Shown piece by piece: positions 124 through 4,783 of a DNA stretch of 59,712 nt. The notes below the pieces were generated by a model. The model was given only the letters and a program-made list of their open reading frames with translations, had not been told where the DNA came from and ran no database searches. Position 1 is the first letter of the stretch. Every line of letters starts with the position of its first letter. A program made the translations under genes and the position numbers. Where the stretch lies: NCBI GenBank assembly GCA_005798335.1, contig SYJV01000556.1, positions 1 through 59,712 of the forward strand, written 5' to 3'. Origin of the DNA: Planctomycetaceae bacterium (lineage in GTDB: Bacteria > Planctomycetota > Planctomycetia > Pirellulales > Pirellulaceae).

Positions 124-180
124 TTGACAATCGAAGTAGTTTTCGATTAATCTAAAAAAAGTTTCGACTGTTCGAAAACT
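124..180 (+). promoter_or_regulatory. Probable promoter with operator-like inverted repeat
   Basis: A perfect -35 hexamer TTGACA at 124-129 is followed 18 bases later by a weak -10 TAATCT at 148-153. Overlapping and following this are the arms AGTTTTCGA (138-146) and TCGAAAACT (172-180), which are exact reverse complements, and two shorter nested dyads built from TTCGA/TCGAA (131-146 and 162-177). The position just ahead of a metal transporter operon suggests an operator for a metal-sensing repressor; that link is inference. Confidence 0.42.
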
Positions 181-202: not shown

Positions 203-1219
203 ATGATGGGCCGTCAATTGCTCGTGTTTTTCCATTTAGCTGTGGTTCTCTTCTGTGGTGGTTGCGGGAACAAGTTACCTACCCAAAAAAATGCAACACT
301 TCAAGAAAAATCGACGGCGACTTTTCGGGGCGAGTACCCAATTTCTGCCACTGTTACCGTCGGCATGGTCGCGGATTTGGTACGAGAAATTGGCGGCGAA
401 AAAGTCAAAGTTATGCAATTGCTTGGTGATGGTGTTGATCCTCACCTATACAAACCCACACGCGATGATGTGCAGGCGATCATGCGGGCGGACATCGTCT
501 TTTACAACGGTCTGATGCTTGAAGGTAAAATGGCGGAGACGTTAACCGAGCTGGGTAACTCTAAGACGTCTGTTCCTGTCGCCGAACTGCTCGAGCCGGG
601 TACATTGGGGAACGACCCTCAACATTCTGCGCATCCCGATCCTCACGTTTGGATGGATGTAAACCTGTGGAGTCAAGTTGGCAAAATTGTCGGTGAGCGA
701 CTCGCTCAATTTGACCCATCCAACGCTCAGCATTATCAACAACGCAGCGAAGCATTGCGCGCCAAGCTCGACCGATTGCATGTTTATGGCCAGCAAGTCA
801 TGCGGGCGGTTCCGGCTGAGCGACGAGTGCTGGTTACGTCGCACGATGCGTTTAGGTACTTTGGTAAAGCCTATGAAGTCGAAGTACAAGCTGTACAGGG
901 CATTAGCACGGAAAGCGAAGCAGGCCTTCAGCGCATCAACGAATTGGTAGACATGTTGGTCAGTCGCAATGTACAGAACGTATTCATCGAGAGCAGTGTT
1001 CCCAAGGAGAGCATCGAAGCGTTATTGCGCGGTGCCGCGTCGCGAAACCACAAAGTGAAGGTTGCCGGAGAATTATTTTCCGATGCCATGGGAAGAGACG
1101 GAACTTATGAAGGAACCTATATCGGCATGATGGACCACAATTTAACATCGATTGCCAAGGCGCTTGGTTCTGATCAAGTGCCGGCCAATGGATTTCGTGG
1201 TTTCGAGGCCTCTCAATGA
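203..1219 (+). CDS. Metal ABC transporter substrate-binding protein (TroA/YtgA/ZnuA family)
   Basis: Extracytoplasmic binding protein that captures Mn, Fe or Zn and delivers it to the transporter encoded downstream. The N-terminus is a hydrophobic leader ending in FCGGC, suggesting a lipid-anchored protein although the lipobox is not textbook. Metal-ligand candidates follow the TroA pattern: DPHLY, PHVWMD, SHDAF and a C-terminal DAMGRDGTYEGTYIG segment. No long His-rich zinc loop is present, which favours Mn/Fe. An in-frame TTG at 188 is possible, but ATG 203 has AAGG at suitable spacing, giving 338 residues. Its stop overlaps the ATPase start as ATGA, the first of three such couplings. Confidence 0.9.
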   Translation: MMGRQLLVFFHLAVVLFCGGCGNKLPTQKNATLQEKSTATFRGEYPISATVTVGMVADLVREIGGEKVKVMQLLGDGVDPHLYKPTRDDVQAIMRADIVFYNGLMLEGKMAETLTELGNSKTSVPVAELLEPGTLGNDPQHSAHPDPHVWMDVNLWSQVGKIVGERLAQFDPSNAQHYQQRSEALRAKLDRLHVYGQQVMRAVPAERRVLVTSHDAFRYFGKAYEVEVQAVQGISTESEAGLQRINELVDMLVSRNVQNVFIESSVPKESIEALLRGAASRNHKVKVAGELFSDAMGRDGTYEGTYIGMMDHNLTSIAKALGSDQVPANGFRGFEASQ

Positions 1220-2025
1220 AAACAACGGTCGTCTCATCCGTCGTCAAGATGTCCGCCGATGCACCGCTTTCAGTGCGAGATATTACCGTTGCCTATCATC
1301 GCAAACCCGTGCTCTGGAACGTTACCCTCGATGTACCCGGCGCGAGTATGGTTGGGTTGGTCGGACCCAATGGAGCTGGTAAAAGCACGTTGCTCAAAGC
1401 GATCGTCGGCATGGTCCCGCGCATCTCTGGCGAAGTCCGGATATTCGGCAAGGAGTACCATCACCATCGATCCGCGGTCGCCTACGTGCCACAGCGAGAA
1501 AGCGTGGATTGGGACTTTCCGGCGACGGCACTCGATGTCGTGATGATGGGAACCTACGGACAACTAGGTTGGTTTGGTCGGGTAACCAAAAAGGAACGAC
1601 AAGCGGCCCACGAAGCGTTACGGCAGATGGAAATCGAACATTTAGCCGAACGACAAATCAGCCAATTGTCCGGCGGTCAACAGCAAAGGACGTTTCTCGC
1701 ACGAGCACTGGTACAGCAGGCGGATTTATATCTCATGGACGAGCCATTCGCTGCCGTGGATGCCGCCACTGAGAACGCGATCGTAAATATCATGCGAACT
1801 TTGCAAAGCGCTGGCAAAACGATCGTCGTCGTACATCACGATTTGCATACGGCGCGTGAGTACTTTGATAGGATCGTGTTGCTGAATACTCGCTTGATCG
1901 CTGCGGGTAAGACTGCCGATGTTTTCACGGACGAAAATCTGCAAAAGACGTACGGTGGCAAATTGACTCTGCTGGAAGAAGTTGGCGATGCGATGCGCCG
2001 ACGCGACCGGAGCAACAGCCCATGA
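1216..2025 (+). CDS. Metal ABC transporter ATP-binding protein
   Basis: Cytoplasmic ATPase subunit powering metal import. All ABC motifs are visible: Walker A GPNGAGKST (about residues 50-58), a Q-loop in VPQRE, signature LSGGQQQR (151-158), Walker B LYLMDEP (171-177) and H-loop VVHHD (His 207). Length of 269 residues is normal for the ZnuC/MntB/YtgB type. The ATG overlaps the stop of the binding protein, and its own stop overlaps the first permease start, so translation is probably coupled. A downstream ATG (MSADAPL) is an alternative start. Zn, Mn and Fe subfamilies cannot be separated from sequence alone. Confidence 0.93.
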   Translation: MKTTVVSSVVKMSADAPLSVRDITVAYHRKPVLWNVTLDVPGASMVGLVGPNGAGKSTLLKAIVGMVPRISGEVRIFGKEYHHHRSAVAYVPQRESVDWDFPATALDVVMMGTYGQLGWFGRVTKKERQAAHEALRQMEIEHLAERQISQLSGGQQQRTFLARALVQQADLYLMDEPFAAVDAATENAIVNIMRTLQSAGKTIVVVHHDLHTAREYFDRIVLLNTRLIAAGKTADVFTDENLQKTYGGKLTLLEEVGDAMRRRDRSNSP

Positions 2026-3476
2026 ATTTTGTGGCCGTCACGCTCGAATTCATCGCTGGACAGACCGCCGCAGTCCCACTGATTCCTCGATCATGGGCTT
2101 GGCGAGTTCTTACGCTGAGCGACTACAACACGCGCGTGGTGCTTTATGGAACCACTTTGCTTGGCATCGCGGCGGGACTGCTGGGTGTTTACATGTTGCT
2201 GCGCAAACGCGCTTTGCTGGGCGATGCGATCAGCCATGCAACGTTACCCGGCGTGGCCGCCACCTATCTCTGGTCGGTCAGCGCGGGCTACGAAAAATCC
2301 CTGGCTTTGTTATTAATTGGTGCCGCGATTAGTGGTGGACTGGGCGGATTGACTGTGCTGGCATTGCGACATGTGGCCAAGCTGCGCGAGGATGCGGCGC
2401 TCGGTATTGTGCTGAGCGTGTTCTTTGGTGCGGGTGTGGCGCTGGTCGGTATCGTGCAACAAGACTCCGGCGGGAATGCGGCAGGTTTGGAGGGATTCAT
2501 CTACGGCAAAGCTGCGGCGATGACGGCCGAAGATGCGTGGCTCAGCGGCGGTGCCGCACTGCTGGTGATGTTAATCGTGTGGGCAATCGGTAAAGAATTA
2601 CAAATCCTGTGCTTCGATTCCGAACTGGCTCGATCACAGGGTTTGCCGGTTTTGCTTTTGGATACGTTGCTTATTGCGCTAGTCGTGGGTGTCACGATTG
2701 TCGGCTTGCAGGCGGTCGGATTGATTTTGGTAATTGCTCTCTTGGTGATACCAGCGGCAGCAGCCAGGTTTTGGAGCGACTCGCTCAAACAGATCCTCGT
2801 GGTCAGTGCATGTATCGGTGGAGCAAGCTGCTCAATAGGCACGTTGACCAGCGCCACGTTCGCCAAGTTGCCCAGTGGTGCGACGATTGTCTTGGTTGCT
2901 TGTGGTGGATTTGCTGTGAGTCTAGTGTTTGGGTCCGCTCGCGGAATAGTCTGGCAAGGCCTACGGCACCGACGGATGAGAGATCAGCAAGATTTCCAAC
3001 ATTTCCTTCGTTTTGCCTACGAGTATCTCGAATCGCAGAACAATGCTGGACCGTTTATCAAACCTGGCAGCGTTCCGATCGCGCTGAGCCATCTGATTCA
3101 TTCGCGTACGTGGAGCGCGCATCGCGTGCTCGCAGTTGGACAGCAACTGCAGAAATTGGACATGGTGGTCATGCGTCCCGACGATTGTATCGAATTAACC
3201 AAGCGCGGTTGGCTGGCGGCGCGACGCATCGTGCGCGAACATCGATTGTTGGAAATGTACTTGTTGCGCGAAACGGATGTCGATTTGGGGCAGGCCGATC
3301 GCGATGCTGACTATCTCGAGCACGGATTGATGCCGGAGCACTTGATGGATCTGGACGAGGCGATGCGCGCCGAGAGTTTGTTTGATGTACCCGCAAGTCC
3401 GCATCCCCTATTGCCAGAAACTGTGGCATCCGATTTGCCTAGTCGCGTTTTGCCTGAACAGGGAAAAACAGCATGA
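2022..3476 (+). CDS. Metal ABC permease fused to DtxR/MntR-like domain (YtgC-YtgR-like)
   Basis: Residues about 30-305 form an ABC-3 permease with multiple membrane spans and the family segment LLGDAISHATLPG. Residues about 325-450 are an added cytoplasmic module resembling DtxR/MntR regulators: a winged-helix-like stretch ending ELTKRGWLAARRIVREHRLLE, then DADYLEHG. His 407, Asp 430, Glu 433 and His 434 align with MntR metal-ligand positions, with Asp for Glu at one. This is the architecture of chlamydial YtgC-YtgR, where the regulator is released by cleavage (established for Chlamydia; inferred here). Total 484 residues against about 290 for plain permeases. Third gene of the overlapping operon. 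Confidence 0.9.
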   Translation: MNFVAVTLEFIAGQTAAVPLIPRSWAWRVLTLSDYNTRVVLYGTTLLGIAAGLLGVYMLLRKRALLGDAISHATLPGVAATYLWSVSAGYEKSLALLLIGAAISGGLGGLTVLALRHVAKLREDAALGIVLSVFFGAGVALVGIVQQDSGGNAAGLEGFIYGKAAAMTAEDAWLSGGAALLVMLIVWAIGKELQILCFDSELARSQGLPVLLLDTLLIALVVGVTIVGLQAVGLILVIALLVIPAAAARFWSDSLKQILVVSACIGGASCSIGTLTSATFAKLPSGATIVLVACGGFAVSLVFGSARGIVWQGLRHRRMRDQQDFQHFLRFAYEYLESQNNAGPFIKPGSVPIALSHLIHSRTWSAHRVLAVGQQLQKLDMVVMRPDDCIELTKRGWLAARRIVREHRLLEMYLLRETDVDLGQADRDADYLEHGLMPEHLMDLDEAMRAESLFDVPASPHPLLPETVASDLPSRVLPEQGKTA

Positions 3477-4783
3477 GCGCGGAACTGTCCTGGGAGATCG
3501 ATGGCTGGATAATTTTGGCGGGAGCATTGTGCGCCATGTCAGCAGCGCTGCTAGGCAATTTCTTGGTCCTGCGCCGGCAGAGCTTACTGGGGGATGCAAT
3601 CAGCCATGCAGTTCTACCTGGGCTGGCAGCGGCGTTCTTGTTGACAGGCCAGCGGCAGGGCTGGGTGATGTTTCTAGGGGCAGCATCGGTCGGTGTACTA
3701 ACCGTGCTGTTGACCGAACTTGCACGGCAGTTTGGGCGCGTCGATGAGAGCGCTTCGATAGGCGTCGTTTTCACCTTTCTATTCGCGCTGGGTTTGGTGA
3801 TGATTGTACAAGCGGCCGATAGCGTCGATCTAGATCCCGGTTGTGTGCTGTATGGGTCGATAGAAACGTCGATGATCAGAAAAATGCCCCTATTTGGCCT
3901 GTCGATCCCACGCGTGGTCGTTACGCTGGGTACAACGCTGACCATCAATTCACTGTTTGTGGCCGCGTTTTATCGGATGTTGAAAGTCAGCACTTTTGAC
4001 CCACAGTTGGCGCGTGCTCAAGGAGTTCCAGTCAATTTCTTGCATTACGCGCTTGCAGGATTAGTCGCGGTTACCAGCGTGGCGTCGTTTGAATCCGTTG
4101 GGAATATTCTCGTCGTAGCCATGTTCGTGGTTCCGCCTGTGGCAGCGTGGCTACTGACAGATCGTTTGAAGGTTATGATCGTCCTGAGCCTGGTGATCGG
4201 AGTTCTTAGCGCGGTGCTGGGGCATTTAGCAGCCATCAACGTGCCAATTTGGTTTGGTTACCGCAGTACCAGCACGGCGGGCATGATGGCCGTTGCTTCG
4301 GGAGGGTTACTGTTCTTCTGCGTGCTGTTTGCTCCGCGCAAAGGATTGTTATCGCAGTTGCTACGCCAGTGGGAAGTCTCGCTGCGCATACTCGGCGAGG
4401 ACGTGTTGGCGACTCTCTATCGCGCCGAAGTTGCTGGACAAAACGCGGTGCGGTTGGTAGGGTTGGTCCGATCCTTGCTGGTTACCAAACTATGGGCGCG
4501 CATTGTGATTGAGTTCTTGCAGTTGCGTCGGCTGGTTTCCCGAGAATCAGACGGGCTGCGATTGACAACCGCTGGTCGCAGTCGAGCACAGAACATCGTG
4601 CGATCGCATCGATTGTGGGAGCACTACTTGGCCAGTGAGGCAGGGATGTCGAACGAAGTATTGCACGATGGCGCCGAGCGACTGGAGCATTTCACCGATC
4701 GGCAAATGCGCGAGCGGTTGTTGGTCGAAAGCAATGCACCCAGTACTGACCCGCACGGTCGCCCGATACCACCGGAAGCATGA
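3473..4783 (+). CDS. Second metal ABC permease, also with a DtxR-like C-terminus
   Basis: Second membrane subunit of the metal importer. Residues about 10-290 are an ABC-3 permease (LLGDAISHAVLPG, many hydrophobic spans). Residues about 300-420 again resemble a DtxR family regulator: a helical region, LRLTTAGRSRAQNIVRSHRL, then AERLEHF. His 379, Glu 402, Glu 405 and His 406 match the MntR ligand pattern better than in the first permease. Having a regulator-like tail on both permeases is unusual; in Chlamydia only YtgC has one. The start overlaps the preceding stop as ATGA. The 436-residue length fits the extra domain. Last gene of the operon; no strong terminator was seen after it. Confidence 0.88.
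   Translation: MSAELSWEIDGWIILAGALCAMSAALLGNFLVLRRQSLLGDAISHAVLPGLAAAFLLTGQRQGWVMFLGAASVGVLTVLLTELARQFGRVDESASIGVVFTFLFALGLVMIVQAADSVDLDPGCVLYGSIETSMIRKMPLFGLSIPRVVVTLGTTLTINSLFVAAFYRMLKVSTFDPQLARAQGVPVNFLHYALAGLVAVTSVASFESVGNILVVAMFVVPPVAAWLLTDRLKVMIVLSLVIGVLSAVLGHLAAINVPIWFGYRSTSTAGMMAVASGGLLFFCVLFAPRKGLLSQLLRQWEVSLRILGEDVLATLYRAEVAGQNAVRLVGLVRSLLVTKLWARIVIEFLQLRRLVSRESDGLRLTTAGRSRAQNIVRSHRLWEHYLASEAGMSNEVLHDGAERLEHFTDRQMRERLLVESNAPSTDPHGRPIPPEA

Follow-up and report, generated by a model that had tools for sequence, protein, structure and literature searches.

DtxR-type C-terminal domains lacking the DNA-reading signature on both permeases of a planctomycete metal ABC importer

Among the closest described systems is the chlamydial permease YtgC, from which YtgR is released and represses operators (PMC7755916, PMC6504234 and PMC5599777); according to the second of these, no iron-dependent regulator other than YtgR has been identified in Chlamydia. 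The review among them (PMC5599777) places permease-regulator fusions in 11 phyla and likens YtgC to a membrane-anchored LacI. In MetNI and ModABC, C-terminal sensing domains sitting on the ATPase trans-inhibit the ABC importers (PMC10710835). Single permease-DtxR fusions are already known; what is new in the operon described here is a pair of tails without the DNA-reading signature.

The window, the whole stretch of 59,712 nucleotides analysed (Planctomycetaceae bacterium, contig SYJV01000556.1), contains a metal ABC importer operon encoding a binding protein, an ATPase, a TroC-type permease (P1) and a TroD-type permease (P2). The P1 gene (2022–3476, 484 aa) and the P2 gene (3473–4783, 436 aa) each overlap the preceding gene by 4 bases, and both products were identified as ABC-3 permeases (PF00950, E values of 8e-57 and 5e-42, respectively). 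The features are:

140..157, no strand assigned, operator-like imperfect palindrome TTTTCGATTAATCTAAAA with 8/9 base pairs matching, 31 bases 5' of the first start codon
188..1219, + strand, substrate-binding protein of the ZnuA/TroA type (PF01297); the assigned TTG start codon is doubtful and ATGs follow closely 3' of it
1216..2025, + strand, ABC ATPase (gene call and domain search)
2022..2939, + strand, TroC-type permease part of P1 (PF00950)
2943..3038, + strand, P1 tail, predicted continuous helix from the end of the last membrane segment to sensor helix 1, with H327 at position 8
3084..3197, + strand, P1 tail, predicted winged-helix fold without the DtxR DNA-binding signature (model and HMM)
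3198..3365, + strand, P1 tail, DtxR metal-binding/dimerisation domain (PF02742) with H407, E411, D426, D430, E433 and H434
3473..4324, + strand, TroD-type permease part of P2 (PF00950)
4346..4432, + strand, P2 tail, predicted continuous helix with D310 at position 8 (model and alignment)
4454..4564, + strand, P2 tail, predicted winged-helix fold without the DtxR DNA-binding signature (model and HMM)
4565..4771, + strand, P2 tail, DtxR metal-binding/dimerisation domain (PF02742) with H379, E383, H398, E402, E405 and H406

Both permeases are fusions of an ABC-3 permease with a C-terminal DtxR metal-binding domain. PF02742 (Fe_dep_repr_C), with a curated cut-off of 27 bits, matched P1 at 36.2 bits (residues 393–448) and P2 at 69.7 bits (residues 365–433), P1 being the weaker DtxR match of the two; the domain search gave no match to the FeoA domain in the window proteins. 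At positions 8, 79, 83, 98, 102, 105 and 106, which we take from DtxR/MntR work to be ligand positions, the residues are H, H, E, D, D, E and H in P1 and D, H, E, H, E, E and H in P2, and from these residues the tails may be expected to bind metal. Among the relatives described below, E105 and H106 are conserved in 96% and 91% of P1 tails and in 100% and 100% of P2 tails, with the residue at position 102 being variable among P2 tails. The window P1 tail lacks the Trp that follows H-R-L in 98% of P1 tails. Of 49 double-tailed loci, 8 have a P1 tail that has lost several ligand residues, and the P2 tail has lost some as well at 4 of the 8.

The predicted fold points the same way. For either tail the leading hits of a PDB sequence search were DtxR-family proteins (best E values of 1.1e-5 for P1 and 1.3e-12 for P2), which argues that the relationship is not due to chance. 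AlphaFold models of the tails had mean pLDDT values of 81.9 (P1) and 93.6 (P2), and structure searches with them returned DtxR-family proteins in all 50 listed rows for P1 and in 48 of 50 for P2, both remaining rows being 2x4h chains (a hypothetical protein from Sulfolobus). By these models, both tails have the overall DtxR/MntR fold. The initial annotation had proposed DtxR/MntR-like C-terminal domains on both permeases, hence two regulator-like halves from one operon, had suggested structure prediction of each tail as a check, and had named H407, D430, E433 and H434 in P1 and H379, E402, E405 and H406 in P2; all of this agrees with our results, as does its comparison in kind with the chlamydial YtgC fusion, i.e. 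a permease with a C-terminal DtxR-type domain. To the named residues can be added E411 and D426 in P1 and D310, E383 and H398 in P2, with D310 (position 8) presumably corresponding to MntR D8.

The DNA-binding half differs. PF01325, the N-terminal DNA-binding domain, had no match in window P1 or P2. We counted 124 full-length P1 and 62 full-length P2 tails from relatives in seven phyla, together with 74 standalone DtxR regulators. At E values up to 0.1, PF02742 matched 122/124 P1 tails, 62/62 P2 tails and 74/74 standalone regulators, and PF01325 matched 8/124, 0/62 and 74/74, respectively. Models of the HTH and of the metal domain were built from 31 planctomycete standalone regulators and applied with a threshold of 10 bits. 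The HTH model reached at least 10 bits in all 43 held-out standalone regulators, themselves found with a whole-length planctomycete standalone model, and in none of the 124 P1 and 62 P2 tails, and the metal-domain model did so in 43/43, 114/124 and 62/62. In a matched control, the metal domains of 7 standalone regulators diverged most (10.7–22.4 bits), yet the same proteins scored 19–42.5 bits for the HTH, whereas the HTH score never exceeded 6.2 bits in the 172 tails whose metal domain scored at least 15.8 bits. At a metal-domain identity of 0.5–0.6, HTH identity was 0.19 and 0.20 in the tails versus 0.38 in standalone regulators, and fewer than 20 of 26 HTH residues were kept in 8/62 P2 tails versus 0/74 standalone regulators. 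Mean net charge over positions 34–51 was +3.4 and +2.6 in the tails versus +1.2 in standalone regulators, as might be expected if the tails contacted DNA or some other acidic partner. In the window tails the DtxR recognition-helix signature is absent, a winged-helix fold is predicted and the basic third helix is kept, and contact with DNA is therefore still conceivable. IdeR reads DNA by indirect readout (PMC8464063), so that loss of signature residues is no proof of lost DNA binding. With the metal half retained and the DNA-reading signature lost, the tails probably slow the importer itself instead of switching genes.

The spacer is nearly constant: counted from the Gly that follows the final membrane segment up to the first ligand position, it has 18 residues in 111 of 124 P1 tails (10 had no pattern match) and 60 of 62 P2 tails, or in 99/124 and 53/62 when counted alignment-free. 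In the models of both window tails this region is predicted to form one continuous helix. The idea that a conserved internal ATG lets the tails be made as separate proteins was rejected, as a spacer Met occurs in only 32/124 P1 and 18/62 P2 tails.

Relatives were collected by a contig search with a fused-protein query, of which the best 80 of 544 were used, and from planctomycete loci picked partly through PF02742 hits; the counts given here thus describe these loci and give no frequency of fusions in nature. The same operon is present from two sources in some cases (e.g. L054/L139 and L082/L146), and partner permeases scored as absent may reflect contig ends, split operons or class labels. 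There was no chlamydial record among the best 80 of 544. Besides the full-length tails there were 17 short ones (14 P2 and 3 P1), most consisting of the wHTH-like half without the metal half, which did not enter the Pfam and HMM counts; one of them, the P1 tail of L045, reaches into the metal half. In a tree, P1 tails grouped with P1 tails in 101/108 rows and P2 tails with P2 tails in 54/58 rows, the exceptions being a single-permease group (8 rows with mixed labels), L083, L084 and L085. Standalone regulators lay on one side of a branch with a support of 99, or 97 with metal-domain columns alone, and the view that the tails were recently copied from the DtxR of this genome was rejected on these grounds; both trees were quick, with short alignments and many unresolved forks. 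The window's own tails obey the P1/P2 split, P1 falling on a long branch (1.25) among the P1 tails of other genomes and P2 among their P2 tails, and the earlier proposal of a tail duplicated locally is therefore wrong. Nor was its idea of an ancestral trait shared by Planctomycetes and Chlamydiae supported as one confined to the PVC superphylum, since the fusion is also found in Bacteroidota, Acidobacteriota, Hydrogenedentota and Latescibacterota among the matches listed. The P1 'D..D' ligand variant is not limited to loci with a tailed P2, as it also occurs in Verrucomicrobiota with a tailless P2.

A standalone regulator is present at 43 of 80 named loci. PF01325 proteins above the cut-off were found in 18/18 genomes, namely the bacterium's own and those of the remaining retrieved loci that have an operator-like box (18 of 19, G219 being left out as its permeases have no tail). 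Such a protein is encoded no more than about 4 kb from the fused permease in 8 of the 18, and all 29 PF01325 matches over the 18 genomes fall outside the fused permeases. The palindrome at 140–157 is the only place in its own genome matching the pattern without mismatch (the whole-genome box scan gave 4 places versus 2 for a reversed control pattern), and similar boxes precede some related operons; a promoter scan gave 4 matches versus 3.3 in shuffles. Of the genomes having one class of box, 5/7 contain an MntR-type standalone regulator, versus 0/11 of those having the other (p = 0.0025), or 6/7 versus 2/11 (p = 0.013) when three more distant MntR-like proteins are added, the box classes having been defined from the same upstream regions that were later counted. 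By these counts, operator class tracks the type of standalone regulator.

We give about even chances to the view that the tails are cytoplasmic metal sensors kept on the permeases, feeding back on transport beside a separate repressor. It is suggested by i) the keeping of the metal half while the DNA half diverged, ii) the near-constant 18-residue spacer in a predicted continuous helix, iii) the separate regulator in 18/18 genomes, whose type the operator class follows, and iv) the precedent of MetNI and ModABC for trans-inhibiting C-terminal domains. A fuller version, held more tentatively and at somewhat under even chances, is that a DtxR/MntR sensor has moved to direct transporter control, its tails on rigid helices pairing on metal and shutting import beside a separate DtxR. 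In the view given even chances, cytoplasmic metal would fill the sites and the ligand on helix 1, predicted to run unbroken from the last membrane helix, would be clamped to the metal-binding domain. The P1 and P2 tails would pair once metal-filled, which is plausible, and the transmembrane dimer would be held in an import-slowing state, i.e. feedback or trans-inhibition. Transcription of the operon would be left to the separate DtxR/MntR regulator acting on the upstream palindrome. Counting against feedback sensing are the ligand loss (8/49 loci) together with the variable position 102 of P2, the location of known trans-inhibition domains on the ATPase and the chlamydial relative being a released DNA-binding repressor; the short tails with a wHTH-like half but no metal half are left unexplained by a pure metal-sensor role.

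That the tails are cut off and act, like YtgR, as homo- or heterodimeric metal-dependent repressors of their own operon appears unlikely. The chlamydial precedent cited above, the fold predicted to be intact, the basic helix 3 and the palindrome before the operon are in keeping with it, but none of the 186 full tails reached 10 bits with the HTH model, a spacer of nearly fixed length, predicted to lie in an unbroken helix, is not what cleavage would require, and L044, L094 and L095, near relatives of the window in their tails, carry the other operator class. Moreover, separate regulators occur in 18/18 genomes, whereas YtgR is described as the only iron-dependent one of Chlamydia. The released-repressor action implied by the initial annotation is accordingly unsupported, neither tail having the recognition-helix signature; the loss of DNA-binding residues from both winged helices, which it had named as evidence to the contrary, is largely borne out in sequence, although the fold is predicted and helix 3 is basic. 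Rather improbable, too, is a structural or assembly role (holding the permeases together or building the complex, with structural metal) or slow decay as relics: tail completeness ranges from none through the wHTH-like half only to both halves, the window P1 tail is long-branched and P1 ligands are lost in the 8 loci, but E105/H106 are among the most conserved residues family-wide, more than a relic needs. Least probable, and in our view very doubtful, is a membrane-tethered regulator in which attached tails bind DNA or sequester the standalone DtxR through mixed dimers. PF02742 is described as a metal-binding and dimerisation domain, the genomes also encode a separate DtxR and the membrane-anchored LacI offers a parallel; tails and standalone regulators nevertheless form separate tree groups (support 99 and 97), and the DNA-binding signature is absent.

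To our knowledge, how bacteria halt ABC import of Mn, Fe or Zn faster than by transcriptional repression is poorly understood, and these fusions are a concrete, widely distributed candidate for fast import arrest, with named residues to mutate. If the feedback sensor is real, a repressor fold would serve for trans-inhibition by transition metals in at least seven phyla, and other YtgCR-type fusions might control transport besides genes. The chlamydial literature treats such a tail as a repressor; the organisms surveyed here lack the DNA-reading signature in their tails, and every genome checked (18/18) has a separate DtxR-family regulator.

Compared with known systems, YtgCR is like P1 in that a ytgABCD-like operon encodes a TroC-type permease ending in a DtxR-type domain, YtgD presumably having no tail. 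It differs in that here the tail is not confined to the first permease, the DNA-binding signature is lost and the genome has another regulator of the family, a separate DtxR. DtxR, MntR and IdeR regulators (DR2539, B. subtilis MntR and IdeR) share with the tails the fold, the metal-binding/dimerisation domain and most ligand positions, whereas the tails are joined to permeases by a predicted helical spacer of nearly constant length and lack the recognition-helix signature, the window tails having PF02742 without PF01325. The C2 domain of MetNI and ModABC resemble the proposal made here in that a cytoplasmic C-terminal domain would bind the imported substrate and slow import, an arrangement with which the anatomy of the tails is compatible; there the ATPase carries the domain, whereas in this operon the permeases carry it and its predicted fold is that of DtxR.

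The window opens with a metal importer operon of four genes, in which neighbouring genes overlap by 4 bases at each junction:

188-1219, binding protein (operon gene 1)
1216-2025, ATPase (operon gene 2)
2022-3476, permease P1 (operon gene 3)
3473-4783, permease P2 (operon gene 4)

P1 is called TroC-like and P2 TroD-like, after the tro/ytg gene order; in relatives, permeases were assigned to P1 or P2 by similarity to those of the window. Besides an ABC-3 permease part, each protein carries the C-terminal DtxR/MntR-like domain (the tail) proposed in the initial annotation, with PF02742 above its curated cut-off in both and the MntR-like ligand residues at the positions it had named. AlphaFold models (mean pLDDT 81.9 with 79 sequences for the P1 tail and 93.6 with 24 for the P2 tail) likewise agree with the DtxR fold it had presumed, both tails retrieving DtxR, MntR and IdeR structures and containing a predicted winged helix. 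The best match was MntR for P1 (E 2e-4) and DR2539 for P2 (E 6e-8, TM 0.78 to query, rmsd 1.5).

At the ligand positions 8, 79, 83, 98, 102, 105 and 106, the window's P1 tail carries H, H, E, D, D, E, H, and its P2 tail carries D, H, E, H, E, E, H. Where both permeases have full tails (49 loci, L054 and L139 being the same operon), the P1 pattern x-H-E-D-D-E-H was found in 39 and H79, E83, H98, E105 and H106 in the P2 tails of 45, while several of these residues are lost from the P1 tail in 8 (L048, L069, L075, L078, L086, L087, L141 and L169). L075, L078, L086 and L087 belong to one planctomycete family (f26), with P1 tails devoid of the metal-site His residues and P2 tails lacking part of the helix-turn-helix (HTH). 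Asp occupies position 8 in 88% of P2 tails; standalone (unfused) regulators have Asn there in 79% of cases. The P1 tail of the window (2940-3476) has a branch of 1.25, versus 0.34-0.48 for L174, L154 and L044, and has no Trp after H-R-L, and may therefore be drifting or specialised.

From 60 stretches of planctomycete genomes and 80 named loci (the best 80 of 544 relatives), we compared 124 P1 and 62 P2 full-length tails with standalone regulators, of which same-class genomes supplied 31 and the named loci 43 (74 in all). At E <= 0.1 in Pfam, PF02742 was detected in 122/124 P1 tails, 62/62 P2 tails and 74/74 standalone regulators, and the DNA-binding domain PF01325 in 8/124, 0/62 and 74/74, respectively. 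Mean column information was 1.30 (P1), 1.20 (P2) and 2.72 (standalone) bits at HTH positions 25-50, and 2.54, 2.59 and 2.99 bits at metal-domain positions 67-110. As a control for divergence, HTH identity was compared between pairs of equal metal-domain identity: it was 0.19 in P1 and 0.20 in P2 versus 0.38 in standalone regulators at metal-domain identity 0.5-0.6, and 0.33 and 0.34 versus 0.66 at 0.7-0.8. With models built from the 31 same-class regulators and recognition set at >= 10 bits, the HTH model recognised 43/43 held-out standalone regulators, 0/124 P1 and 0/62 P2 tails, and the metal-domain model 43/43, 114/124 and 62/62. Even the 7 standalone regulators that had diverged most (metal domain 10.7-22.4 bits) reached 19-42.5 bits with the HTH model; among the 172 tails whose metal domain scored >= 15.8 bits, the HTH maximum was 6.2. 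The base-contacting residues of IdeR, according to an excerpt of PMC8464063, are Ser37, Pro39, Thr40 and Gln43; over positions 37-43 the window's P1 tail has S, A, H, R, V, L, A and its P2 tail T, K, L, W, A, R, I, and the standalone DtxR of the same genome has S, P, S, S, V, T, S, a comparison qualified by the paper's conclusion that IdeR recognises DNA indirectly. The DNA-binding signature is lost, with the caveat that the tail helices are basic. Short permease tails with a winged-helix-like half and no metal domain occur at several loci (L053, L076, L077, L080-L082, L099, L112, L116, L162, L163, L165 and L177), this half standing alone on both permeases in L162 (Anaerolineae) and L177 (Larsenimonas).

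In both models a single unbroken helix starts just past the last membrane segment and continues into helix 1, the site of the first ligand position (H327 in P1, D310 in P2). Between the Gly following that segment and position 8, the distance is 18 residues in 111/124 P1 tails (3 of the others have another spacing and 10 no match to the pattern) and 60/62 P2 tails; an alignment-free pattern gave the same distance in 99/124 and 53/62. This constancy across phyla and between both permeases suggests, by inference, that permease and tail are rigidly coupled and that a single ancient fusion took place no later than the P1/P2 split.

Of the 136 loci that have a full tail on one permease or more, 49 have it on both. 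A full P1 tail is accompanied by an untailed P2 in 44, by no P2 call within the locus in 19 and by a short-tailed P2 in 12, and a full P2 tail by no P1 call in 9, an untailed P1 in 2 and a short-tailed P1 in 1. By record title (many records being metagenome bins) and among the best 80 of 544 relatives, full ligand-bearing tails occur in Acidobacteriota, Bacteroidota, Hydrogenedentota, Planctomycetota, Verrucomicrobiota, Omnitrophota and Latescibacterota, and double fusions in the last four. Full-length tails without most ligands were seen in L163 and L165 (Thermomicrobiales) and L173 (Symbiobacteriaceae). In trees made from short alignments by a quick method, standalone regulators split from all tails (support 99; 97 with the metal domain alone), and P1 and P2 tails form largely separate groups. 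The two tailed permeases lie at separate places in some planctomycete genomes, each keeping its tail (L062/L063, L064/L065, L096/L097), and on different contigs in G052. In the class sample, PF02742 matches within a single long frame (514-666 codons) in 11/14 same-family genomes, and the six loci examined (L035-L040) have a fused importer with a single permease. No such copy was found in the window's own genome at E <= 1e-25. The window operon is nearest to genomes of another family (f10), which suggests exchange or differential loss.

Elsewhere in the window's genome, the sole other protein above the PF02742 cut-off is a complete 229-residue DtxR (L001) with PF02742, PF01325 and FeoA domains; a second PF01325 match, on contig C201, is partial (29.3 bits). 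PF01325 exceeded its cut-off in 18/18 genomes searched (this one and 17 others with the operator-like box described below), and on comparison of positions the fused permeases account for 0 of the 29 matches. A PF01325 protein lies within about 4 kb of a fused permease in 8/18, and a standalone regulator inside the fetched stretch in 43 of the named loci (best 80 of 544 relatives); in Bacteroidota it is often first among the same-direction genes.

An imperfect palindrome of 18 bases lies at 140-157; allowing <= 2 mismatches, its pattern occurs at 4 places in the whole genome versus 2 for the reversed control. Boxes of two classes lie ahead of related operons, in 17/116 (0.45 expected) and 16/116 (0.7 expected), figures that flatter the motifs since the classes were set after inspection of the upstream regions. 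An MntR-type standalone regulator is present in 5/7 second-class versus 0/11 first-class genomes (p = 0.0025), or 6/7 versus 2/11 (p = 0.013) when three more distant MntR-like proteins (72-83 bits, in G135, G163 and G222) are added. In the window, a first-class box goes with a DtxR-type regulator. L094, L095 and L044, whose tails are near relatives of the window's, carry a box of the second class.

The retained metal site, lost DNA-binding signature, near-constant helical link and separate regulator fit tails that would sense metal and act on the transporter itself, a reading that we put at an even balance. That they are instead DtxR-like repressors, as YtgR is once released from the chlamydial permease fusion YtgCR, seems improbable, and keeps what likelihood it has because of the intact predicted fold and the basic helix 3. 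Among titles and abstract openings, in a coverage with subscription journals mostly outside it, we found no published report of a paired or signature-less DtxR-permease fusion. For a tail sensor acting on its own transporter, the trans-inhibition of MetNI and ModABC, as outlined in an excerpt of PMC10710835, offers an analogy.
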